Assembly: GCA_016765035.1 (NCBI GenBank)
Contig: JAESQS010000110.1
Location: forward strand, 1-33,334
Source of the DNA: Kordiimonadaceae bacterium
GTDB lineage: Bacteria; Pseudomonadota; Alphaproteobacteria; Sphingomonadales; Kordiimonadaceae
DNA length: 33,334 bases
Direction: 5' to 3'
The position numbers and the translations under genes are program-made. The notes beneath the pieces were generated by a model that was not told the origin of the DNA, ran no database searches, and saw only the letters and a list, made by a program, of their open reading frames with translations. How positions within the stretch are numbered: the stretch's first letter is position 1; each line of letters starts with the position of its first letter. This document shows, piece after piece, positions 6,161 to 32,511 of this stretch.

Positions 6161-6988
6161 ATGGCGTTCTCAGTAAACACCAATGCAGGTGCGTTTGCAG
6201 CCCTGCAAAATCTAAACAAAACAACTGCATCCCTCAATACAATCCAGACACAAATCAATACTGGCCTCAAAGTTGGGTCCGCTAAAGATGATGCTGCGAC
6301 TTTTGCTATTGCGCAAAAACTTCGCGGTGATGTTGCTGGCCTAAATGCAGTAAAATCCTCTCTAGACAGAGCCTCTTCCACACTTGACGTTGCGATTGCA
6401 GCGGGTGAAGCTGTTTCTGACCTACTCATCGAACTAAAAGAAAAAGCAGTTGCTGCAAAAGATTCAGGTCTTGATTCAGCAAGCCGGACTTCCCTGAACG
6501 ATGACTTCAAACAGTTGCGTGACCAAATCACGTCAATTGTAGACAATGCTGCCTTTAACGGTACAAATGCCGTTAAAAATAGTGGCTCGGCTATTATTGC
6601 AATCACCAATGACAGTGGCGGCAACACCATCACTGTAGCAGCCCAAGATCTGTCTTTGGCAGGTTCAACGGTTTCGTTGACAGCAGGTAGCTCTATTTCT
6701 ACCCAAGCGATTGCATCTACAGCCGTACAAAACCTAGATTCTTCAATTTCTAATGTTAATACGTCCCTTTCTGCACTGGGTTCAGGTGCCAAACGCCTAG
6801 AACTGCAGCGTAGCTTTGTGGACAAATTGTCAGATTCAATTGAAGTAGGTATCGGTAACCTAGTTGACGCCGACCTTGCCAGAACAAGTGCTAGCTTGCA
6901 GTCATTGCAAGTTAAACAGCAGCTTGGTCTTCAGGCACTGTCGATCGCCAATCAGGCACCAGGAACGGTACTTTCACTATTCCGGTAA
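6161..6988 (+). CDS. Flagellin 1 (short type, 275 aa)
   Basis: MAFSVNTNAGAFAALQNLNKT...N-terminal D0/D1 and C-terminal GIGNLVDADLARTSASLQSLQVKQQLGLQALSIANQAP...LFR; no large variable D2/D3 region. Confidence 0.97.
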   Translation: MAFSVNTNAGAFAALQNLNKTTASLNTIQTQINTGLKVGSAKDDAATFAIAQKLRGDVAGLNAVKSSLDRASSTLDVAIAAGEAVSDLLIELKEKAVAAKDSGLDSASRTSLNDDFKQLRDQITSIVDNAAFNGTNAVKNSGSAIIAITNDSGGNTITVAAQDLSLAGSTVSLTAGSSISTQAIASTAVQNLDSSISNVNTSLSALGSGAKRLELQRSFVDKLSDSIEVGIGNLVDADLARTSASLQSLQVKQQLGLQALSIANQAPGTVLSLFR

Positions 6989-7013
6989 GTGGTCCTCAGT
7001 GATCACAACTTTT

Positions 7014-7039
7014 AAGGGCCCTTCGGGGCCCTTTTTTTT
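7014..7039 (+). terminator. Rho-independent terminator after flagellin 1
   Basis: AAGGGCCC-TTCG-GGGCCC followed by a run of 8 T. Confidence 0.95.
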
Positions 7040-7045
7040 GCCTTA

Positions 7046-7175
7046 GCTAGAGCGTATCCGTTCTAATTAGAGTCATAGTCGCCCACGCGCCTGCCCCAAT
7101 TATTTGGCCCGGCCACCCGCTCGATCATATCCAATTTAATTTGCATCACCGGCCCACGCCCCGCCCACAGTAGGT
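7046..7175 (+). repeat. Two tandem degenerate copies (P3a, P3b) of a dispersed palindromic intergenic repeat
   Basis: P3a leader GCTAGAGCGTATCCGTTCTAATTAGAG... reaches CCCACGC at +36. P3b leader GCTCGATCATATCCAATTTAATTTGCATCACCGGCCCACGCCCC... CACAG. Both match copies at 22481 and 32391-32511. Confidence 0.75.
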
Positions 7176-7248
7176 AATTTCTACCCATGCGATATTACCG
7201 TCCTTAGAAAAAACTATAAAAAATCATTTAATTTCAACATGTTACCAC

Positions 7249-7263
7249 TGGCACACCCCTTGC
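7249..7263 (+). promoter_or_regulatory. Sigma-54 promoter of flagellin 2
   Basis: TGGCACACCCCTTGC, a perfect match to TGGCAC-N5-TTGC. Confidence 0.9.
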
Positions 7264-7318
7264 GAGTATGAGCCCGAGAGCTAGAATGGCTCAAATTATT
7301 CTCAAAAGGAGACGACTA

Positions 7319-8146
7319 ATGGCTTTTTCCGTAAACACAAATGCGTCCGCTTTGTCAGCACTTCAAAACCTGAACAAAACAAGCGCAAAACTCGGAATTG
7401 TACAAACTGCAATTAACACAGGGTTGAAAGTGTCCTCATCCAAAGATAACAGCGCTGTATATGCTATTGCACAGTCCTTACGGGCTGATGTAGCTGGTAT
7501 TAATGCGGCACAGTCGTCTATGGATCGGGCGTTATCAACCATTGAGGTTGCTATCGCCGCCGGTGAAGCTGTCTCAGACCTTCTAATTGAAATGAAGGAA
7601 AAGTCAGTTGCTGCAAAAGACCTCGGTCTTGACACAGCTAGTCGCGGCTCACTTAACAATGACTTTAAACAACTGCGTGATCAGATTACGTCTATCGTTT
7701 CAAACGCTGAATTCAACGGTACGAATGTGGTGAAAAACGGTGGCACGGATATTGTTGCAATAACCAATGATGACGGTTCCAGGACAATAACCATCGGAGC
7801 ACAAGATTTATCTCTGACAGGCAGTATCGTTTCCCTGAGCGCTGGTAGCTCTATTTCTACCCAACCCCTAGCATCTACTGCCGCTCAAAACCTTGAAAGT
7901 TCAATTACAAACGTAAACTCTTCGCTGTCCGCACTTGGCGCCGGGGCCAACCGTTTGGATTTACAACGAACTTTCATATCAAAACTTCGGGATACAATTG
8001 AAGTTGGCATTGGTAACCTTGTTGACGCTGATTTAGCCAGAGCCTCTGCTGACCTGCAATCTTTGCAGGTGAAGCAGCAACTTGGACTACAAGCACTGTC
8101 AATAGCGAACCAAGGCCCTCAAGCTGTGATCAGTTTGTTCCAATAA
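7319..8146 (+). CDS. Flagellin 2 (divergent paralogue)
   Basis: MAFSVNTNASALSALQNLNKTSAKLGIVQTAINTGLKV...; ATG at 7319 chosen because the ORF-track start at 7268 lies only about 5 nt after the sigma-54 -12 element; AAAGGAG RBS upstream of 7319. Confidence 0.95.
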   Translation: MAFSVNTNASALSALQNLNKTSAKLGIVQTAINTGLKVSSSKDNSAVYAIAQSLRADVAGINAAQSSMDRALSTIEVAIAAGEAVSDLLIEMKEKSVAAKDLGLDTASRGSLNNDFKQLRDQITSIVSNAEFNGTNVVKNGGTDIVAITNDDGSRTITIGAQDLSLTGSIVSLSAGSSISTQPLASTAAQNLESSITNVNSSLSALGAGANRLDLQRTFISKLRDTIEVGIGNLVDADLARASADLQSLQVKQQLGLQALSIANQGPQAVISLFQ

Positions 8147-8159
8147 GTCTACAAAACCA

Positions 8160-8194
8160 ATGCCGAGCGAGAAGGTCTTGCTCGGCATTTTTTT
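8160..8194 (+). terminator. Rho-independent terminator after flagellin 2
   Basis: ATGCCGAGC-GAGAAGGTCTT-GCTCGGCAT followed by a T run. Confidence 0.92.
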
Positions 8195-8334
8195 CCTCCC
8201 CCTCCTTATATCCTATGCAATTCCTGCCTATGCGGCAAATATTGCCCACCTCAAAAGAATCCCGATATTAGAAAAATTGTACTTTTATATATTAGTTTCA
8301 ATTAGTTACCATTATTTCTCGCCTTATACGATTA

Positions 8335-8349
8335 TGGCACACGTATTGC
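8335..8349 (+). promoter_or_regulatory. Sigma-54 promoter of flagellin 3
   Basis: TGGCACACGTATTGC, a perfect match to TGGCAC-N5-TTGC. Confidence 0.9.
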
Positions 8350-8420
8350 TTCTATAGGTTTGGGACAAAAAGTCCTAAAAGGCAAAATGCCTTATAAAAA
8401 CTCCAAAAAGGAGAAGCAAA

Positions 8421-9248
8421 ATGGCTTTCTCGGTAAACACCAATGCAGGTGCGTTTGCTGCCCTGCAAAACTTGAACAAAACTAGTAGTTCGTTACAGGG
8501 CGTTCAGTCCAGAATTAATACAGGCCTTAAAGTTGGTTCTGCAAAAGACGATGCGGCGACATTTGCAATTGCGCAAAAACTCCGTGGTGACGTTGCAGGT
8601 CTAAACGCTGTTAAGTCCTCACTAGACAGAGCCGCTTCCACTCTTGATGTTGCGATTGCAGCGGGCGAAGCAGTTTCTGACCTTCTCATTGCACTTAAAG
8701 AAAAAGCGGTTGCTTCGAAAGATTCAGGTCTTGATTCAGCAAGCCGGACTTCTTTGAACGATGATTTCAAACAGTTGCGTGACCAAATCACATCGATTGT
8801 AGACAATGCTGCGTTTAACGGCACTAATGTTGTTAAAAACAGTGGTTCTGCCGTGATTGCGCTTACCAATGACAGCGGTAGTAACACTATTACTGTTGCT
8901 GCACAGGATCTGTCTTTGGCAGGTTCAACGATTTCGCTGACTGCGGGTAGCTCAATTTCTACTCAAGCGATCGCATCTACAGCAGTACAAAACCTCGATT
9001 CTTCAATTACAAACGTAAACACCGCCCTCTCAGCATTGGGTTCTGGTTCAAAACGTCTGGAATTGCAGCGTAGTTTTGTAGACAAGCTGTCTGATACAAT
9101 CGAAGTTGGTATTGGTAACCTTGTTGATGCTGATTTGGCTAGAGAATCAGCTAACTTGCAAGCATTGCAAGTGAAACAACAACTCGGCCTACAAGCACTG
9201 TCAATCGCTAATCAAGCGCCTTCGACAGTACTCGGTCTCTTCCGATAA
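8421..9248 (+). CDS. Flagellin 3 (close paralogue of flagellin 1)
   Basis: MAFSVNTNAGAFAALQNLNKTSSSLQGVQSRINTGLKVGSAKDDAATFAIAQKLRGDVAGLNAVKSSLDRA...; same length as flagellin 1 with long identical blocks. Confidence 0.97.
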   Translation: MAFSVNTNAGAFAALQNLNKTSSSLQGVQSRINTGLKVGSAKDDAATFAIAQKLRGDVAGLNAVKSSLDRAASTLDVAIAAGEAVSDLLIALKEKAVASKDSGLDSASRTSLNDDFKQLRDQITSIVDNAAFNGTNVVKNSGSAVIALTNDSGSNTITVAAQDLSLAGSTISLTAGSSISTQAIASTAVQNLDSSITNVNTALSALGSGSKRLELQRSFVDKLSDTIEVGIGNLVDADLARESANLQALQVKQQLGLQALSIANQAPSTVLGLFR

Positions 9249-22480: not shown

Positions 22481-22583
22481 GCTAGAGCGTATCCGTCTCA
22501 ACAAGAGCCATTTCCACCCACTCCTCCTAGCCAACCACCCCACAGCGTATATCCTAGCGGGTGGTTGGCTAAGAGGAGTGGGT
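22481..22583 (+). repeat. Dispersed palindromic intergenic repeat, copy P1
   Basis: Leader GCTAGAGCGTATCCGT...; arms ACCCACTCCTCCTAGCCAACCACCC (22516-22540) and GGGTGGTTGGCTAAGAGGAGTGGGT (22559-22583), 25 bp with one mismatch; loop CACAGCGTATATCCTAGC. Confidence 0.92.
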
Positions 22584-22607
22584 CGGTTTAGGCAGTTCCA
22601 TATCCAC

Positions 22608-22638
22608 AAAAAAAGGGGCCCAACCGAGCCCCTTTTTT
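22608..22638. terminator. Bidirectional rho-independent terminator
   Basis: AAAAAAAGGGGC-CCAACCGA-GCCCCTTTTTT between convergent dctM and TonB-dependent receptor genes. Confidence 0.92.
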
Positions 22639-22683
22639 ATCAGTATTTACCAAGCATGACAGTCATGCTTGATGTATTAATTT

Positions 22684-25146
22684 TTAGTCAAACCGGTATG
22701 TCATGCGCACACCAACTTGGCGCGGTGTCAGGATATTCACCTGATACGAACGCACAGTTGCACCTTCAACAGTTTGATTACTCAGGCGCGTGCTTTGCAC
22801 ACCTGTTTCAGCATATGTATTGAACATATTGTCTACATACAAAGTCGCTGTCCAATTTTCAGCATCATAAACAACAGAGGCATTGGCGACACCAAAACCA
22901 TCTAATGTGCGGCTGAAACCACGTGCACCTGTTCTGGAAAGAACATTACCTTGCACTGCATAGCTGACGTTGTAATGCAGTGAATTGCCGTTTTCCAACG
23001 GCTGGTCATAATTCGCAAAGATCGAGAATTGTGTCTCAGGTGAACCCGGCAAGCGGTCTCCATCTTCTCCATCCTCAAATCTGGTAGCAAAACCACCATC
23101 TGTTACGATGGAGCGAATTAAAGACGGCACATCCGCTGTTAACTCAGACTTCGTATAACTGAAGGCACCACGCAGGTTAAACCTGTCAGTTACGCGCCAA
23201 CTACCGCTGACTTCGATACCTTTTGATTCAGCACCATTTGCATTGATGGTAATAGGAATACTGGCATTCACAGTGGCAGAACCAAGCTGTGGGTCATCCC
23301 ATTTAACAAGATAGATGGCAGTATTGAAGGTAACAGCACCATCCAACAATGTGGTTTTCAAACCAAGTTCATAGTTTGTTGTTTTGTCAGGGCCATATGA
23401 GCGCTCGTCAAATACAGCAACATCACCAGAGTTTGGTCCAAATGTTTGGCCCGGTGCAAGCGCACAGGCACCCTGTTGGCCGTTCGGGTCAAACTCTGCA
23501 CAAGGGCCAATGCCATTTGAATTACCAATCCGGTATCCTTGGCTAACAGTTGCATACAACAGCATATCATCGTTGAAAGCGTAAGATGTATTGATTTTAA
23601 AGAGCGTGCCACTGTCTTCCTGCCCAGAATCTGGGTCAAAGTCTAATGCCTCAAGTGCATCAAATGTAGGAATGGTAAAGCCCGGATCAAACAGCGGGAA
23701 ATCAACTAAACTTAGTGTTTTAAGTTCATATTCATAATAACGGCCACCAACCGTTACTTGCCAGTCGTCAGTAATTTGGTAAGAAATTTCACCAAAAACT
23801 GCTTTTTCAACAAGCTCTGAAGTGTCGCTTGAGAAATATTCCAAATCATCAGGACGGTCAAAACCTGCAAAGGCTGCATAGCCTGGTGTGTATTCGGCAG
23901 ATGTGCCTACAGTATTAAACTTGTTATAATACCCACCAATAATCCAGCTAAGGTCAGAATCATTCGTTGAAACCAAACGAATTTCTTGGTTAAAGAATGT
24001 TTCTTCCAAATCTTCCCGTGTACGTGATGTAAAGGTTGGGAAGCTTTCATATGAATATTCAAGGCTGATCAACAAATCAGTCTGGTCTCGTTGACCATTC
24101 ACTGTAAATTTGCCAATGCCCGTAGCAGAAGTAAGCTCGGCAAAGCCAAGGTCTGCGGTGATTTCCAGTGCAAGAAGTTCATTTTCCTGCTCGTCTGGCT
24201 CAAGCACACGGCTGGGAGATTCGTACCTGCCAGTCCTGCGGTGACCAAGGCGACCACTGGTTGGTCGGCCTTCATTATCATTATTTTGGAAATAATAGGT
24301 TAAAGTGGCATCAAAGGCATCTGCTGGTTTCCACCGCAAAGCAACACGGCCTGAAAGCGATTCCTGACCATTAGCATCTTTAACAGGGCTGAAGTTTTCA
24401 GTTTCAGACAGCGGTGCATCAGGCTCAGAAACACCAATATTAGCAACAACATTTGTATAATCAATGAAGCCTTTGTCATTCAAAAAGTCCATTGAAGAGC
24501 GAATAGCCAGTGTTTCACTGATTGGAATATTCACTGTGAAACCAATATCACTGCTAAGGCCGCTACTTTCCGAAGTAAGGTACGTATCACCGCGGACTTT
24601 AACCATCATGCCATCAAAGTTTGGCTTGTTGGGAATATAGCGAATTGCACCGCCCAGTGTACCAGCACCATATAGGGAGCCTTGTGGGCCAAGCAATGTT
24701 TCAACTCGGGCCAAATCATTCAGCTTCAAGTCGATATTAATGGGTACTTCACCAAGATACGTGGCAACTGTTCCGCCATTATCTTCAACTTCTCCCTGAC
24801 CAAGGCTATCAGCATTCAAGCCCCGAACAATAATCCGGTTACCCATCCGGCCACCGCGATTAATAGCATTAATGCCGGGCACAAATGCGAGAACATCTGT
24901 AATGTCTTTAAAGCCCTGCTCTTCAAGTTGTGTACCACTCATGGCGGCAATGTTAATGGGCACATCCTGAACTGAAGCTGCACGGCGCGTTGCGGTAACT
25001 ATAATCTCATCAAAAGTGCCAATATCGTTCGCGTCTTGTGTTTCCTGCGCGGCAGCAATTTCACCAACGCCCATTGATGCCATACAAATGGCAACTGCAC
25101 TGGCAGACCGTTTTAAAATACTTTTATGGTTTATAACTGGCTTCAT
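22684..25146 (-). CDS. TonB-dependent receptor
   Basis: From ATG 25146 (GGAGG upstream): signal peptide, plug TFDEIIVTATRRAASVQDVPINIAAMSGTQLEEQGFKDITDVLAFVPGINAINRGGRMGNRIIVRGLNADSLG, and C-terminal ...LTPRQVGVRMTYRFD ending in an aromatic residue. Confidence 0.95.
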   Translation of the reverse strand: MKPVINHKSILKRSASAVAICMASMGVGEIAAAQETQDANDIGTFDEIIVTATRRAASVQDVPINIAAMSGTQLEEQGFKDITDVLAFVPGINAINRGGRMGNRIIVRGLNADSLGQGEVEDNGGTVATYLGEVPINIDLKLNDLARVETLLGPQGSLYGAGTLGGAIRYIPNKPNFDGMMVKVRGDTYLTSESSGLSSDIGFTVNIPISETLAIRSSMDFLNDKGFIDYTNVVANIGVSEPDAPLSETENFSPVKDANGQESLSGRVALRWKPADAFDATLTYYFQNNDNEGRPTSGRLGHRRTGRYESPSRVLEPDEQENELLALEITADLGFAELTSATGIGKFTVNGQRDQTDLLISLEYSYESFPTFTSRTREDLEETFFNQEIRLVSTNDSDLSWIIGGYYNKFNTVGTSAEYTPGYAAFAGFDRPDDLEYFSSDTSELVEKAVFGEISYQITDDWQVTVGGRYYEYELKTLSLVDFPLFDPGFTIPTFDALEALDFDPDSGQEDSGTLFKINTSYAFNDDMLLYATVSQGYRIGNSNGIGPCAEFDPNGQQGACALAPGQTFGPNSGDVAVFDERSYGPDKTTNYELGLKTTLLDGAVTFNTAIYLVKWDDPQLGSATVNASIPITINANGAESKGIEVSGSWRVTDRFNLRGAFSYTKSELTADVPSLIRSIVTDGGFATRFEDGEDGDRLPGSPETQFSIFANYDQPLENGNSLHYNVSYAVQGNVLSRTGARGFSRTLDGFGVANASVVYDAENWTATLYVDNMFNTYAETGVQSTRLSNQTVEGATVRSYQVNILTPRQVGVRMTYRFD

Positions 25147-25390
25147 ATGCCCCTCCATGAACCCATGCTGTCTCCCACACAGGTATAATTTCCATTCATC
25201 CTCGGTCGGGTACCAACATCTTTGGCCCATCAACCGGGATAACCCCCATAATATGCGTGCTAAGGAAAAGTCTGCGTCAACTCAAAGGTATGACCAACTA
25301 TAAACTGAACGAAAATTATATGTTTAGGGTATTTTTCTATAAACTTATTGCCAAAATGCCGCACAATTGCCTAAAAATGCATAGTGCGCA

Positions 25391-26980
25391 GTGATATATA
25401 CTGTGCCAATCAAGCAAAGGTCCTTCTTTTTGATTGAAATACTTAAAAAAATTAAATCTAAAAGATATGAAGAAGCCCATAAATTATGCATCGACTTAAT
25501 TCATAAGGATGTGAATGATGCCCGTGCTTATTATGGGTTAGGCATCATTACTTTTGATCATAAGAATTTTACCAAAGCCGCTGAGCTTTATGGCAAAGCA
25601 ACAGAGCTAGAACCAAAGCGCGCAGCTTTTTGGGCGGCATATGGGAAGACCTTGTCACTATTAGGTCGTCAAAGCGAAGCTCATACTGCCATCGAAAATG
25701 CGGCCAAGCTCCCTATTCAGGATGCTATAACAGCCGATACAATAGCTGTTGTCTATAGCAGAACAGGGTTTCATGAGCGCGCCATACCCTTTTTTCAAAA
25801 AGCCATAGCGCTCGACCCCCAACCTGCCAATTTCTATTATAACCTTGGGTCTTCCTTGCAATTTTCAGGGCGTTTCGAAGAAGCAGCCGAGGCTTATCAA
25901 AGTGCAATTTCGCGGGAACCAAACTCCTATAAAGCCTATTCTGGGCTTGTTGCGCTTCGTAAGCAAACCAAAGACACCAGCACATTAGAAAAGCTAACAA
26001 CCCTGTTTGAGAAAAACCATAAAGATGCAGATGCCACGCTGCACTTGGGGCACGCCATTGCCAAAACATACGAAGACCTAGGTGAACACGACCAAAGCTT
26101 GCACTGGCTAACCCGTGCCAAGACGATGAATGCTGCTAAATTCGCTGTGGATATACAGGCGCAAAGCGCCCTTTTTGAAGCCTCTAAAAAGACCTTTACT
26201 GCAAAGAGCAGTGAGGACACTGATTTTGACACAAGCGCGCCTATATTTGTCGTTGGATTGCCGCGTACGGGCACAACACTGGTAGACAGAATTTTATCTT
26301 CTCACCCGGAAGTGACCGCCGCAGGGGAAACCAATGTTTTTGCAGGCTTGGTCAAGGGGGCGACACAAACAACAGACAATATGGTGTTGGATGCTAAAAC
26401 ACTGCTTGCGGCAACCTCTGTAAACATGGCCCCAATTGGCAGGCATTATGTGGCCAACACCAAAGCGCTCGCCCGCGGTGCACCGCGTTTTACAGATAAA
26501 ATGCCCTTGAATTTTTTCTATGCAGGGCTGATCCACAAAGCGCTGCCCAATGCACGTATTATTGTGTTACGCCGTGGGGCTATGGATAGCTGCATTAGCA
26601 ATTACCGGCAGTTATTTTCCACGCAATATTCCTATTATAACTATACATATAACTTGGAAAGTACGGGGCATTTTTACCGGGGCTTTGATGACCTGATAGC
26701 CCATTGGAAAGCGACTTTACCAGCCAACCGTTTCATGGAAGTTCACTATGAAGACATTGTCTTTGATCAAGAAGCCCAAACGCGGAAGCTGCTTGAGTTT
26801 TGTGACTTAAGTTGGGACGAAGCCTGCTTGCGCTTTCATGAAAATGATACACCTGTTTCCACCGCCAGTTCGGTGCAAGTGCGCCAACCACTTTATGCCG
26901 GGTCTATTGGACGCTGGAAAAAATACAGCACAGGCCTGACATCCCTCAGAAAAGCCCTTGGGGATCTGGCAGAAACCTAG
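25391..26980 (+). CDS. TPR-containing sulfotransferase family protein
   Basis: TPR repeats (ARAYYGLGIITFDHKNFTKAAELYGKATELEPKRAAFWAAYGK) and PAPS-binding-like IFVVGLPRTGTTLVDRILSSHPEVTAAGET; GTG or internal start uncertain. Confidence 0.9.
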   Translation: MIYTVPIKQRSFFLIEILKKIKSKRYEEAHKLCIDLIHKDVNDARAYYGLGIITFDHKNFTKAAELYGKATELEPKRAAFWAAYGKTLSLLGRQSEAHTAIENAAKLPIQDAITADTIAVVYSRTGFHERAIPFFQKAIALDPQPANFYYNLGSSLQFSGRFEEAAEAYQSAISREPNSYKAYSGLVALRKQTKDTSTLEKLTTLFEKNHKDADATLHLGHAIAKTYEDLGEHDQSLHWLTRAKTMNAAKFAVDIQAQSALFEASKKTFTAKSSEDTDFDTSAPIFVVGLPRTGTTLVDRILSSHPEVTAAGETNVFAGLVKGATQTTDNMVLDAKTLLAATSVNMAPIGRHYVANTKALARGAPRFTDKMPLNFFYAGLIHKALPNARIIVLRRGAMDSCISNYRQLFSTQYSYYNYTYNLESTGHFYRGFDDLIAHWKATLPANRFMEVHYEDIVFDQEAQTRKLLEFCDLSWDEACLRFHENDTPVSTASSVQVRQPLYAGSIGRWKKYSTGLTSLRKALGDLAET

Positions 26981-27010
26981 ATCATATCCGTTTTAATTTC
27001 ATCACCAGCC
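26977..27010 (+). repeat. Leader-only copy (P5) of the dispersed intergenic repeat
   Basis: CCTAGATCATATCCGTTTTAATTTCATCACCAGCC closely matches P3b GCTCGATCATATCCAATTTAATTTGCATCACCGGCC; overlaps the stop codon of the sulfotransferase gene. Confidence 0.65.
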
Positions 27011-27012
27011 AT

Positions 27013-27034
27013 AAAAAAAGGCGCACAGGGCGCC
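27013..27034 (-). terminator. Rho-independent terminator for the DUF2336 gene (minus strand)
   Basis: A run followed by GGCGC-ACAGG-GCGCC; on the minus strand the hairpin is followed by a T run. Confidence 0.75.
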
Positions 27035-27077
27035 TTCATTATTCATTGTAAATCGGCCATATCCGCCGGGTCTTTCC

Positions 27078-28202
27078 TTAAGGAGCGCTAGCCGCAGATG
27101 GTTCTACTTTTTGCAGCTTGCCAGTTAGATAATCCAGATTTTCTGTATCCACACTATCTTCCACGCTGGTAAGCACCCGTTCAATCATCAGCTGCTTGAA
27201 TGTCTCTCTGTCGTCGCCGCCTGTCAGAACCATTTCATCAGCGACATCCAGCGCTGCCCGCGCCATGCTGAAAAACTGTTGGGGCATTTTTGCGGCATCA
27301 AATAGGCGTTGTAGCCCCAAGTTGCCTTTATCATGAACAAGGGCATAGGCATTTAGGACTGGAATACCAACCCGTGCAGCCAAAGCCACTTCGAAGAAAG
27401 TTGTGTCGCCAAGGCAAAGCGCCCGCAACATAAGTGTTGGTGTCAGCCGCCCATTTTCGTGCAACTGCTTCACAAGTTCTTCTACAGTCGAGCGCGTTTC
27501 GCCTTCTGCAAGCGAAACAATTGCTTTTTCCCGGCTGCCAAGAAGCAAGTCACTTGCAAGCCCCGGTGACACTTCATGGTGCGTCATAATATGGTCCCGT
27601 AGCTGCTCGGACACTAATGTCACCAGCCGTTCAGCAACACCGATCGGTAGTTCGCTTCGCTTCGCCAAAGGTTGGTTCACCAGCTCATTGTCGCCGTATT
27701 TATCGAGGACTTTGTCTAAAGTGCTTTCCTTAAGCACTGCCCCTTCATTGCTAACCAGTTTTGCAACGGCTATTTCGTCACCGCTTTCAACAAGCGCATC
27801 GGCCAGCCCTTCAGAAACACTTTCCCTGCCAGCAACTGCCTGCTGCACACTGGACCCACGGGTGCGTACCAGCTCTATCAAATCGCTATCTGTTAAGACG
27901 ATAGAAGTTTCAATGAAGGGCATTGCCACTTCATCTACATCTTTGGCAAGAGACTGCGCCACATCATGCGGAACTTCGGGGTTATCTTTAAGGCTGTCGG
28001 CCAGAGCATGACGTACACGCACTTCAGCATCTTTCAGCATGTGCCGAAAAATACTTTCCGCTAAAGATCGTTCTTCTGCTGTCAGACTGGCGTTACCGAA
28101 GGTCGCAGCTACTTTTACTGCCGCCGCCGCACGGTTTTCACCATTAGGGTCTTGAAGAAGTTTAGAAACATCTGCGCTTGATAATATAGTGCTGTCCGAC
28201 AA
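27078..28202 (-). CDS. DUF2336 domain-containing protein (HEAT-like helical repeats)
   Basis: EIFRHMLKDAEVRVRHALADSLKDNPEVPHDVAQSLAKDVDEVAMPFIETSIVLTDSDLIELVRTRGSSVQQAVAGRESVSEGLADALVE-type region (actual read SIFRHMLKDAEVRVRHALADSL...) is characteristic of DUF2336; apparent TTG start. Confidence 0.87.
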   Translation of the reverse strand: MSDSTILSSADVSKLLQDPNGENRAAAAVKVAATFGNASLTAEERSLAESIFRHMLKDAEVRVRHALADSLKDNPEVPHDVAQSLAKDVDEVAMPFIETSIVLTDSDLIELVRTRGSSVQQAVAGRESVSEGLADALVESGDEIAVAKLVSNEGAVLKESTLDKVLDKYGDNELVNQPLAKRSELPIGVAERLVTLVSEQLRDHIMTHHEVSPGLASDLLLGSREKAIVSLAEGETRSTVEELVKQLHENGRLTPTLMLRALCLGDTTFFEVALAARVGIPVLNAYALVHDKGNLGLQRLFDAAKMPQQFFSMARAALDVADEMVLTGGDDRETFKQLMIERVLTSVEDSVDTENLDYLTGKLQKVEPSAASAP

Positions 28203-28249
28203 GGGCTACATCCTGTTACATGAGTGTTCAATTTACACGCTAAGGCAAA

Positions 28250-28268
28250 CTGGTTAACCGTAAGTTAA
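28250..28268 (-). promoter_or_regulatory. Candidate CtrA binding site upstream of DUF2336 gene
   Basis: Minus strand TTAACTTACGGTTAACC = TTAA-N7-TTAAC, a full match to the CtrA consensus, about 50 nt upstream of the start. Confidence 0.6.
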
Positions 28269-28452
28269 ATTATACTGCGTATTTTTTCTATTAGTATACA
28301 ATGTTTACGGTATTTTAGATAGGTTTTCATTGAGCCAGAGCCAAATAACCGTTAGCATACCGCATATATTTAATCGGGTAGTTTCACTGCCCAAAGGGTA
28401 ATCTAGAAAAGTAACAGCACAATTTCCAACATATTGTATTCGGGGGAATAAC

Positions 28453-30135
28453 ATGAAACGCCTCATGGCATTTTTGGCATGTTTTTTATTGGTGTCACAA
28501 GCATCAAACGCAGCCACAATTCAAGACGACCTTACCATAGCACTATGCCAAAACGGTATAACTGCAGAACAATTACCAGCTAATCTTGCGGCTGAATTGG
28601 CAAAGATAACCAGCGCTGGCAGCAGTTTTATGTGCCCGGTCGCAGAGCCAACTTTTTCTGATTCGGTCAATGCCGTTATGGCACCGATCAGTAAATTCAT
28701 CTCAGACATCGTCTTTTTTGGTGCCCCAATGGGTTGGCTAATTGAAGGCGCCCCTGATTTACCGCTCATTGCTATCTGGCTTATTGGCGGGGCTATCTTT
28801 TTCACATTCTACATGGGCTTCCCCAATATTTGGGGCTTTAAGCAATCCATGAGAATTGTAAAAGGCACCTATGACGACCCTAATGACCCTGGTGAAGTCA
28901 CCCACTTCCAAGCCCTTTCTGCCGCTGTTTCAGGCACAGTGGGTTTGGGGAATATAGCAGGTGTCGCCATTGCCGTTTCAATTGGTGGGCCGGGCGCTAC
29001 ATTCTGGATGATACTAAGTGGCCTCTTTGGCATGACCAGCAAATTTGTTGAATGTACACTTGGTGTTAAATACCGCGAGATTGACGAAAACGGTGTGGTT
29101 TCCGGTGGTCCCATGCATTATCTTTCAAAAGGATTAGCAAACAGGGGCCTGCCCAGCCTAGGCAAAATTCTAGCAGTGCTGGCTGCTATTATGTGCATTG
29201 GTGGCGCTTATGGTGCTGGTGCCATGTTCCAAGTAAACCAATCTGCTCTCCAGTTCACAAACCAGATAACAGCCCTAACAGGCGGCAATGAAAGCTTCTT
29301 CTTCGGTAAGGGCTGGATTTTCGGTATTATTTTTGCTGCTGTTGTCGGCTTGGTTATCATTGGCGGCATTCGGAAAATCACCCATGTGACAGAACTTTTG
29401 GTGCCTATTATGGCCATCATTTATATTTCTGCGTCTCTGGTTGTGATCTTGGCTCATTTCGACCAAATCCCATCAGCCATTGGCCAAATTATAAATGGTG
29501 CTTTCACTGGCGAAGGTGTTCAGGGCGGTATTATCGGTGTATTGATACAAGGCTTGCGCCGCGCTTCCTTCTCGAACGAAGCGGGCCTTGGGTCTGCCTC
29601 CATTGCGCACGCTGCAGCAAAAACCAAAGAACCTGTGGCAGAAGGCCTTGTTGCCTTGCTAGAGCCATTCATCGACACAGTTGTTATATGCACAATCACT
29701 GCGTTGGTTATCATACTCACGGGTTCGTTTGATCCGGATGCGTCCGGCACAGCGGCTGGTATTGCACTCACGTCAAATGCCTTTGGCAGCGTGATTAGCT
29801 GGTTCCCATACATTCTCACCATTGCCGTGATTATGTTTGCATTCTCAACGTCTCTTACATGGTTCTACTACGGTCAACGCTCCTTCCTGTGGCTCGTAGG
29901 CGACAAGCCGGGGGCAGATTTCCTGTTTAAGCTTTCATACCTGCTGACACTGGTTATTGGCTCCGCCATGTCCCTTGCACCGGTTATGGATATGGCAGAT
30001 GCCTTGCTTCTCGCGATGGGTATTCCAAACATCCTAGGGCTTATCTTGCTACGCAAAGAAGTCAAAGCCATGCTGATTGATTATATGGCCCGCGTGAAGT
30101 CTGGCGTGATTAAACCCTATGTAGATAAAGGGTAA
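28453..30135 (+). CDS. Alanine/glycine:cation symporter family (AGCS) protein
   Basis: FQALSAAVSGTVGLGNIAGVAIAVSIGGPGATFWMILSGLFGMTSKFVECTLGVKYRE and RRASFSNEAGLGSASIAHAAAKTKEPVAEG are AGCS signatures. Confidence 0.95.
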   Translation: MKRLMAFLACFLLVSQASNAATIQDDLTIALCQNGITAEQLPANLAAELAKITSAGSSFMCPVAEPTFSDSVNAVMAPISKFISDIVFFGAPMGWLIEGAPDLPLIAIWLIGGAIFFTFYMGFPNIWGFKQSMRIVKGTYDDPNDPGEVTHFQALSAAVSGTVGLGNIAGVAIAVSIGGPGATFWMILSGLFGMTSKFVECTLGVKYREIDENGVVSGGPMHYLSKGLANRGLPSLGKILAVLAAIMCIGGAYGAGAMFQVNQSALQFTNQITALTGGNESFFFGKGWIFGIIFAAVVGLVIIGGIRKITHVTELLVPIMAIIYISASLVVILAHFDQIPSAIGQIINGAFTGEGVQGGIIGVLIQGLRRASFSNEAGLGSASIAHAAAKTKEPVAEGLVALLEPFIDTVVICTITALVIILTGSFDPDASGTAAGIALTSNAFGSVISWFPYILTIAVIMFAFSTSLTWFYYGQRSFLWLVGDKPGADFLFKLSYLLTLVIGSAMSLAPVMDMADALLLAMGIPNILGLILLRKEVKAMLIDYMARVKSGVIKPYVDKG

Positions 30136-30220
30136 CTTTGGCTCAATTCAGCCCGGAAAGAGGGCGTTTTGGCGCGAACTTATTGCATTAGGTTCATCCT
30201 ACATTAAGTAGAAAACAGCT

Positions 30221-30246
30221 AACTGGCGGACATGGTTCCGCCAGTT
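30221..30246 (+). terminator. Hairpin after AGCS gene (possible terminator, weak T tract)
   Basis: AACTGGCGGA-CATGGT-TCCGCCAGTT, perfect 10-bp stem. Confidence 0.5.
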
Positions 30247-30263
30247 TCAGTATTTAAAGCACT

Positions 30264-30719
30264 ATGTGGCTCAGGGGAAAGACTTCCGTGTTAAAACACC
30301 AGATACTATTAGCCCCTATTTTATGGGTCGCGGCAAGTATGCTGACGCCGCAGGTTCTTGCTGCACCGAAGGAAACCGGTTTTTCAGAATCGGGGGACGC
30401 CGCCAAGGGGCGCAGAATCTTTAACCGCTGCAAAGCCTGCCATAACTTGACGGCAACAAACCGCACGCGGCTCGGCCCTAATCTAGACTCATTATTTGGG
30501 CGGCAAGCAGGGTCTGCACACAATTACAAATTCTCCAAAGCACTGGCAGAAGCCACATTCAACTGGACAGAAAACTCCCTGAATGAATGGCTGACAAAGC
30601 CAAACACGTTCCTTCCGGGGAACAAAATGCAGTTCGCAGGCATTCGGCAAAAACAAGATCGCAATGATTTGATCGCGTATTTACGCCAAGCTACTGTATC
30701 AAGTACCAAGAAAAAATAA
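30264..30719 (+). CDS. Class I c-type cytochrome
   Basis: N-terminal export signal; GDAAKGRRIFNRCKACHNLT (CxxCH), RLGPNLDSLFGRQAGSAHNYKFSKAL, PGNKMQFAGIRQKQDRNDLIAYLRQ. Confidence 0.93.
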   Translation: MWLRGKTSVLKHQILLAPILWVAASMLTPQVLAAPKETGFSESGDAAKGRRIFNRCKACHNLTATNRTRLGPNLDSLFGRQAGSAHNYKFSKALAEATFNWTENSLNEWLTKPNTFLPGNKMQFAGIRQKQDRNDLIAYLRQATVSSTKKK

Positions 30720-30740
30720 ATTAGGCGGTGAGGCAATAAA

Positions 30741-31355
30741 ATGAAAAAACTACTAGCAGTGATAGCAACAGCGTTTGCATTCAGCACATCAGTCGTCTCG
30801 CAAGATAAAGCGCTCGATGACCCAAGTGGCGCGATTGCCTTCATCCAAGCTGTGTCTGATGATACAGTTGTAGCTTGGAGCGACAGCAAACTAACGAAAG
30901 CAGATCGTGCGACAGCGTTTCGCTCTATTTTCCGCGAAGCAACAGATATCAACCTTTTGGCTCGCGGTATGCTTGGCCGCCACTATAAAACCATCAGCGT
31001 TGAAGAGCGTAAAAGCTATATGGCAGCCATGCGCGATTATATCGTTGCTGAATTTGACAAACGCATGGAACAAGTGGGCTTTAAAACTCTGGAAGTCTAT
31101 GGCACCCGCCCCGCTTCTGGCAGGCGCGGCCACATATTTGTGCTGACGAAGATTAAACGCGAGAAAGGGGAACCAATCCTTGCCGATTGGCGTGTCCGCA
31201 AGAAAAAAGGCGCTTTTCAGATTGTTAATCTAGACTTTGAAGGCATCAACCTAATGATCACCAACCGGGATTTATTCTCAGCCAAAATAAAATCTGGCGG
31301 CATAGATGGCCTGATCGAGTGGTTGAAACGGCAAACCAATGCCCGTAAGCACTAG
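30741..31355 (+). CDS. MlaC/Ttg2D-family phospholipid-binding ABC transporter auxiliary protein
   Basis: Signal peptide; ATAFRSIFREATDINLLARGMLGRHYKTISVEERKSYMAAMRDYIVAEFDKRMEQ...ILADWRVRKKKGAFQIVNLDFEGINLMITNRDLFSAKI. Confidence 0.88.
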   Translation: MKKLLAVIATAFAFSTSVVSQDKALDDPSGAIAFIQAVSDDTVVAWSDSKLTKADRATAFRSIFREATDINLLARGMLGRHYKTISVEERKSYMAAMRDYIVAEFDKRMEQVGFKTLEVYGTRPASGRRGHIFVLTKIKREKGEPILADWRVRKKKGAFQIVNLDFEGINLMITNRDLFSAKIKSGGIDGLIEWLKRQTNARKH

Positions 31356-31408
31356 CCAAAAGTAATACGTCAGAAGAGACATCAATTTACGCTTATCTGA
31401 GTAAAAAA

Positions 31409-31435
31409 GGCGAGGACAGCAACTTTATCCTCGCC
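31409..31435 (-). terminator. Terminator hairpin for the minus-strand ACT-domain gene
   Basis: A run (31403-31408), then GGCGAGGA-CAGCAACTTTA-TCCTCGCC; on the minus strand a T run follows the stem. Confidence 0.65.
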
Positions 31436-31442
31436 GCTACTG

Positions 31443-31517
31443 GCTCGATCGTTTCCGTTTTAGGAAGAAGCAAGTCCACCCACTCTCTGTACTAGCCCTA
31501 GGCCCACCAATAAGGGC
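31443..31517 (+). repeat. Dispersed intergenic repeat, divergent copy P4
   Basis: GCTCGATCGTTTCCGTTTTAGGAAGAAGCAAGTCCACCCACTC aligns without gaps to P1 (GCTAGAGCGTATCCGT...TTTCCACCCACTC, same 36-nt spacing), followed by the hairpin AGCCCTA...TAAGGGCT. Confidence 0.65.
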
Positions 31518-32053
31518 TAAGTCTTCTCAACCTTACAGTCCAGCCCCAAACTGCCTGCTGTATTATAGAGAGCAGCCTCTAGCGCTATAAACCTGTCTGC
31601 GGGGATATTGGTAGCGATCCGCGTTCTATAATCAAATCCCCCTTCTATGCTAACGCGCCGGCTGCTCATGCGTACAATATTGGCGTTATAGTCCACAAGA
31701 ACATCACTGAGCCGAGACACAAGGCCCGGCTGGTCCCCTCCTGTTACTTCAACCACATGGGTAATTTCACCGCCCTGCCCGCGCAATAGTTCAAACGGAA
31801 AGCTGCTTACAGTGATTCTGGCCCCTTCCAGCAAATTAATCGAGTTTAAGCCTGATTCAATTTCCTCTGTCTGGCTGCCTGCACTGAATTCCGCAACACA
31901 CGAGAATTCAAACCCTTCCCCCAACACAGCATAGGAGCAATCCGCAAGGTTTGCCCCAGTTTCAAATAAATAACCAGTAACCGCAGACACAACGCCCACC
32001 CGGTCTTTCCCTGTTATTGAGAGAAGGTACGTATCAAATTGTTGCTGGTTCAT
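31517..32053 (-). CDS. ACT-domain protein, GcvR-like (glycine cleavage system transcriptional repressor family)
   Basis: Two ACT-like units: YLLSITGKDRVGVVSAVTGYLFETGANLADCSYAVLGEGFEFSCV and HVVEVTGGDQPGLVSRLSDVLVDYNANIVRMSSR. Confidence 0.85.
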   Translation of the reverse strand: MNQQQFDTYLLSITGKDRVGVVSAVTGYLFETGANLADCSYAVLGEGFEFSCVAEFSAGSQTEEIESGLNSINLLEGARITVSSFPFELLRGQGGEITHVVEVTGGDQPGLVSRLSDVLVDYNANIVRMSSRRVSIEGGFDYRTRIATNIPADRFIALEAALYNTAGSLGLDCKVEKT

Positions 32054-32149
32054 AATAAACTCCTAAGAAATGGGTGACGAATTGATCTGAGTTTGATAAA
32101 AAACAAACACTCTAACAACCCTATAATTTTTATACAGGATCCCCAATCA

Positions 32150-32368
32150 ATGGCAGACGAACAACTTCTTCATCTTGTTTTTGGTGGCCAAGTGGAAGAC
32201 CCACAAGCGCTAACATTTAAAGATACCAGCAAAGTTGACATTGTAGGTATCTACCCAAGTTATGCTGAAGCCGAAACCGCTTGGCGCAGTGTCAGTCAGT
32301 CTAATGTAGATGACGCGCTGACAAAATATGTGATTGTACATCTCCATAAACTAATGGAACCACACTAA
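32150..32368 (+). CDS. DUF4170 domain protein
   Basis: From ATG 32150: MADEQLLHLVFGGQVEDPQALTFKDTSKVDIVGIYPSYAEAETAWRSVSQSNVDDALTKYVIVHLHKLMEPH. Confidence 0.88.
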   Translation: MADEQLLHLVFGGQVEDPQALTFKDTSKVDIVGIYPSYAEAETAWRSVSQSNVDDALTKYVIVHLHKLMEPH

Positions 32369-32390
32369 ACCGTAGCTATATTACTTAGCT

Positions 32391-32511
32391 ACAACACCGG
32401 CCCACGCCCCCTACCCAACCACCCGCTAGGATAACTGTGGGGTGGTTGGGTAGGGGGCGTGGGCCGGTGTTGTACCTTAAACCCGATATACTTTAAGTAT
32501 ACTGGGTTTAA
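32391..32511 (-). repeat. Dispersed palindromic intergenic repeat, copy P2 (minus orientation)
   Basis: Perfect 34-bp arms ACAACACCGGCCCACGCCCCCTACCCAACCACCC (32391-32424) and its reverse complement (32440-32473), 15-nt loop; the minus-strand leader region 32474-32511 aligns gap-free to P3b. Confidence 0.93.

Follow-up and report, generated by a model that had tools for sequence, protein, structure and literature searches.

Copies of a probable miniature transposable element in a Kordiimonadaceae genome share a hairpin core with other Alphaproteobacteria

Copies of the element in the window

The DNA analysed here (the window) is a contig of 33,334 nucleotides (JAESQS010000110.1) from Kordiimonadaceae bacterium (GCA_016765035.1), whose 3.36-Mb draft genome consists of 360 contigs and is 76% complete. 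It carries copies of a palindromic element of approximately 134 bp that is bounded by terminal inverted repeats (TIRs) and TA dinucleotides and is probably a non-autonomous DNA transposon, or miniature inverted-repeat transposable element (MITE). Gene names are based on a reading of the translations unless otherwise supported. An original prediction had described six copies of an oriented palindrome with a common leader (P1, P2, P3a, P3b, P4 and P5), and all six were located at the coordinates that it gave.

Of the six, P1 and P2 alone are largely complete. P1 (bp 22482-22589, plus strand) extends from the left TIR to the right arm, both the right outer arm and the right TIR having been lost, and forms a hairpin of -60.8/-70.0 kcal/mol. 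Its asymmetric loop, CACAGCGTATATCCTAGC (bp 22541-22558, plus strand), contains a TAYCCT motif that is common to the class. P2 (bp 32365-32495, minus strand) is nearly full-length with both ends degenerate; its 38 bp arms are 97% complementary (-90.6 kcal/mol), its asymmetric loop (bp 32425-32439, minus strand) belongs to the same sequence class as that of P1, and it starts within the stop codon of a gene that ends at bp 32368. As predicted, the long arms of P1 and P2 surround the same loop, and loop and leader are inverted together in P2.

The other four copies are truncated left ends, all on the plus strand. P3a (bp 7047-7100) lies between two flagellin-like open reading frames (ORFs) and P3b (bp 7120-7162) is a direct repeat downstream of it. 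P4 (bp 31443-31492) is a degenerate fragment in a convergent gap with an adjoining terminator. In P5 (bp 26977-27010), the TAG of the element also serves as stop codon for the ORF that ends at bp 26980. The 36-nt spacing reported between the leader and a CCCAC arm start is correct at P1 (bp 22481 to 22517), P3a (bp 7046 to 7082) and P4 (bp 31443 to 31479), as is the statement that four of the five convergent gaps in the window carry a copy. Terminator-like ordinary hairpins adjoin P1, P3a, P4 and P5; the one at P1 reads as a plain inverted repeat with A/T runs outside the element (bp 22611-22640, no strand assigned). In the region containing P3a and P3b (bp 6161-9248), three flagellin-like ORFs follow one another in tandem, their upstream regions being similar, and both fragments lie between the first and the second.

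The element family in the genome

Further copies exist, and the family is far larger than six: 211 kb of sequence yielded at least 88 copies and fragments, of which 44 are 115 bp or longer, although a single insertion may contribute more than one fragment to this count. Here and below, match counts per genome are lower bounds. P1 used as a query had 49 matches in the genome, and the leader pattern TMGAKCRTWTCCG occurred 53 times, compared to once for a reversed control pattern. The consensus, CTAGAGCATATCCGTCTTAATTAGTACCATATCCGCCCACTCCCCCTACCCAACCACCC-CACAGTGTATCCTAGC-GGGTGGTTGGGTAGGGGGCGTGGGCGGATATGGTACTAATTAAGACGGATATGCTCTAG, is palindromic over the whole element apart from the asymmetric loop: TA is followed by GAGCRTATCCG, an outer arm, a long G+C hairpin with the TATCCT loop, the mirror half, CGGATAYGCTC and a second TA. 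Many copies sit at contig ends, as expected because repeats break assemblies. Outer arms come in two alternative types, ATATCCGCCCAC and CATCACCGGCCCAC, which are mixed within single copies (such as that at L005, bp 1501-1631), as if by recombination between copies. Two other structures were seen in this genome: an element of approximately 45 bp (L045, bp 2170-2215; G000:C71) that consists of just the two terminal repeats, CTAGACCGTATCCG...CGGATACGATCGA, with no hairpin core, and a degenerate, iteron-like array of approximately 20-nt repeats, GCGTAAATGANCCCCCTATA, adjacent to an IS5-type DUF4096 ORF (L200, bp 930-1400; G000:C109).

Among 107 recognisable GAGCRTATCCG ends, 90 are bounded by TA (a dinucleotide with a frequency of 5.5%), and 79 of the 90 have a pyrimidine (C or T) as the next base outward. 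Where both ends of a copy can be read, TA is found on both sides in 21 of 29 cases, while the bases further out vary among copies and between sides (CTA...TAA, TTA...TAC and so on). It follows that insertion duplicates TA and favours YTAR sites. With GAGCRTATCCG at both ends, a target-site duplication, a short length, no transposase gene and many dispersed copies, the element has several of the features by which MITEs are recognised. Some copies are fused via one shared TA (CTCTAGAG), indicating insertion of one copy at another's end. On contigs C133, C341, C54, C222 and C200, pairs of copies or end fragments also adjoin or overlap by a few bases; in the first three of these contigs, the junction is one shared CTAG, which suggests insertion into the element's own end.

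Placement relative to genes and comparison with congeners

The context of the copies was examined in stretches selected via the repeats themselves, using genes called by a simple codon-usage caller. Genes were called on both sides of 59 copies: 29 copies lie in convergent gaps, 28 in tandem gaps, one in a divergent gap and one overlaps a weak ORF. The convergent to divergent ratio of 29:1 (P = 6e-8) is strong evidence of bias because convergent and divergent gaps must be approximately equal in number on a chromosome, and the enrichment in convergent 3' gaps proposed for the window thus extends to the genome. In 18 cases, the TA of the element coincides with that of a TAA or TAG stop codon in a neighbouring gene, and the codon is completed as TAG by the element's initial G; P5 is the example in the window. 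These are 18 of the 68 copies within 60 nt of a 3' end. As 33% of YTAR sites would be expected to give this outcome if used at random, no extra targeting is needed, and a special preference for stop codons was rejected. The orientation of the loop is independent of gene direction (7:7 in convergent gaps and 6:3 in tandem gaps).

The genes around P4 and P2, which we take to encode MlaC-like, ACT-domain and DUF4170-like proteins, show synteny across 18 species of the genus. In all 18, both gaps lack the element and hold other short sequence, nothing or a plain terminator. Exact copies of the TIR number 41 in the genome of the window but zero to two in each of 60 relatives, so the burst of TIRs is confined to one species.

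A hairpin core in other Alphaproteobacteria

The family had been proposed to be specific to its lineage, and while this holds for the ends, it does not hold for the interior. The inner hairpin, without the ends of the window species, is present in other families of the order. A two-arm pattern with a free loop had at least 116 matches in species genomes; titles among those listed include Sphingomonadales, Hyphomicrobiales, Minwuiaceae, Sneathiellales, Pelagibius and unclassified alphaproteobacterial or pseudomonadotal metagenome-assembled genomes (MAGs). One further match lies on a 1.5-kb contig that is labelled Phycisphaerales but is probably misbinned. The stem consensus, CCCRCTCCCCC-nn-CCCAACCACCC with a TAYCCT loop, is conserved across the class, and positions 11-27 are paired in 84-98% of cases with frequent compensatory exchanges. 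The arm CCCAACCACCC was fixed by the search pattern, whereas the CCCRCTCCCCC outside it and the loop were free. A 23-base exact pattern from the loop and stem of the window species had no match in the species collection because loop and stem vary from one lineage to another; searching with the arm pattern and a variable loop did work.

A covariance model, the kind of search that the original prediction had recommended, was built from the pattern matches and found the core in 31 of 386 sampled genomes of Alphaproteobacteria, mostly in multiple copies and with a patchy distribution; in a phylum-wide sample of 399 genomes, all 11 positives were Alphaproteobacteria. Copies found by the model also have arms of CCCGACC or CCCGGCC and mostly retain a TATCCT or TACCCT loop, so conservation of the loop is not a product of the search pattern, although the model itself derives from matches to that pattern. 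The core hairpin occurs together with several kinds of terminal repeat and is probably an old module. In Sphingobium psychrophilum and MAG GS6 (L102 and L140), the element has matching flanks at what is apparently the same orthologous place, indicating that some insertions are inherited vertically.

Among 2.9 million viral contigs (IMG/VR), the arm pattern matched once (L199, bp 9174-9213, a core hairpin and a half copy), and no match was found in phages. Two sphingomonad plasmid records match, with no annotated feature under the match. The element had no Rfam match at the gathering score, and none of the papers searched describes the hairpin-core family. No recurrent gene of a mobile-element type was found beside the hairpins across 116 loci, only small groups of ordinary genes.

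Terminal repeats and the search for a mobiliser

In other lineages, the same core is carried between different ends, often together with a second small hairpin. These ends are GAGTCTGTTCAAGAAT in Minwuiaceae, GAGTCTGTTTGGAAAA in Sphingobium and Sphingomonas, GAGACCGTTTGAGAAT in the genome G087 and GAGCCTGTTTCGAAAA in SZUA-100. An IS5-family element of Sphingobium carries GAGGCTGTTTGGAAAATC, ends that it shares with the core copies of that genus, and similar ends, along with duplications of TA or TNA, occur among its plasmid-borne relatives (annotated as IS12528, ISRm4-3, ISMdi26 or IS5 family). In an anchored comparison, the TIRs of the Minwuiaceae, Sphingobium, G087 and SZUA-100 copies match IS5 ends at 13-15 of 16 positions, a score equalled by only 0-25 of 5000 shuffles. 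Three further end types match IS5 ends no better than chance. Within the window genome, no TIR pair at the spacing of an insertion sequence (IS) encloses a transposase. IS427-type IS5 elements of core-rich genomes were considered as a parent and rejected, as they make a TA duplication yet have different ends.

Comparison with known repeats

One close likeness is to IS5-family elements of the IS1031, IS12528, ISRm4 and ISMdi26 kind and their MITEs, which duplicate TA or TNA at YTA, have ends beginning with GAG and match the TIRs of four lineages that share the core. The element differs in having no transposase and a TIR that is unmatched in the window species, and the hairpin core is absent from the IS inspected (L309). 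Bru-RS1 and Bru-RS2 of Brucella are palindromes of 103-105 bp that act as hot spots for IS711, which duplicates TA at YTAR (PMC2266754, PMC2267715). By description, they resemble the element in size, palindromic structure, intergenic location, alphaproteobacterial host and target rule, but they are described as targets of IS711 and not as sharing its ends. The CIR repeats of Caulobacter and its relatives (Chen and Shapiro 2003), as summarized in PMC2229807, are approximately 110 bp in length, intergenic, have TA termini and are conserved between alphaproteobacteria. On that summary, they are alike in size, location, termini and conservation but have two arms and a GANTC site in the loop; the element has one main arm and no GANTC in its consensus. 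RUP of Streptococcus pneumoniae and the Correia elements of Neisseria are likewise small, largely intergenic MITEs with TIRs and TA termini (PMC2229807). RUP differs in being tied to IS630, and a class-wide hairpin core is not reported for either.

Interpretation

Several other origins were weighed against that of a MITE. The hairpin might be selected as a bidirectional transcription insulator or a protector of mRNA 3' ends and so be kept in convergent gaps, a role suggested by the original prediction. Strong hairpins at 3' ends, their enrichment in convergent gaps, a core conserved with compensatory stem changes and the lack of a clear T-run terminator directly after the gene at P2 would all fit such a role. 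We nevertheless consider it unlikely and unsupported, since four window copies already have terminator-like hairpins beside them, tandem gaps account for nearly half of the classified copies, the loop is unbiased in orientation, many copies are truncated and the 18 congeners do without the element at P2 and P4. An IS630/Tc1-type parent is slightly less plausible still. Such elements also make TA duplications, with RUP as a precedent (PMC2229807), but no DDE_3 match was found in the 76%-complete window genome and the four other lineages with the same core have IS5-type ends.

The original wording, "REP/MITE-like", survives in its second half. A family of repetitive extragenic palindromic (REP) or REPIN sequences, mobilized by a REP-associated tyrosine transposase (RAYT; Y1 HUH type) acting on single-stranded hairpins, would account for high-copy intergenic palindromes with a conserved asymmetric loop. 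The proposed check for a RAYT gave no Y1_Tnp match in the 76%-complete genome, while control genomes were matched, and a TA duplication and TIRs are typical of DDE transposons. GTAG and CGTC REPs are 20-40 bp in length with an unpaired tag, those of the CGTC type having loops of 4-5 nt (PMC3733652). The element has approximately 134 bp, stems of about 25-40 bp, loops of 12-22 nt and no unpaired GTAG or CGTC, GTAG being found solely within the paired stem. CGTC palindromes are common in Alphaproteobacteria and no dedicated transposase is known for them (PMC3733652). Taken together, a REP origin is highly improbable.

The TIRs, TA duplication, species-specific burst and empty orthologous sites instead support the suggestion of non-autonomous mobility. 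We believe that the element is probably a MITE moved in trans by a DDE transposase, with an IS5-family enzyme as the likeliest mobiliser. Such a transposase would recognise the terminal repeats and duplicate TA at YTAR sites. Because IS5 ends match in four lineages and not in the window species, IS5 mobilization has support in part of the family, and for the window genome we infer that an enzyme of the IS1031/IS12528/ISMdi26 kind acted. The element would then have multiplied recently within this species, and its accumulation behind genes may be due to selection removing insertions in genes and promoters. A second reason would be that YTAR covers TAA and TAG stop codons, in which an insertion makes a new stop (TA plus the G of the terminal repeat). 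The economical reading is that of a parasite tolerated behind genes.

Certain observations weigh against this interpretation. Mobility is deduced from sequence comparison. The TIR of the window species matches the examined IS5 ends at only 9 of 16 positions, a score reached by 3436 of 5000 shuffles, and no autonomous element with these ends was found in the 76%-complete draft, only IS5-type remnants with other ends. A class-conserved core with changing TIRs is also an unusual pattern for a MITE and hints at a function for the hairpin. It is possible, if doubtful, that the core serves a function as DNA or RNA, has been retained across the class and has repeatedly been joined to the ends of different IS5-type transposons, with turnover of the terminal repeats. 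The shared stem and TAYCCT loop would then give these elements an advantage, for example by binding a host factor, aiding transposition or rendering insertion harmless by blocking transcription. Palindrome arms may be homogenised by template switching, which would explain the compensatory changes yet leaves the shared arm and loop sequence unexplained.

The family accounts for contig breaks in genomes of this kind and marks recent insertions. It also shows TA-targeting elements landing in stop codons undamagingly, because the first base of the element restores the stop. In a MITE, the ends are normally those of a parent IS and it is the middle that drifts. The conserved middle and lineage-specific ends of this family therefore demand explanation: the hairpin may be under selection for some role, or the passengers may form a lineage of unusual age.

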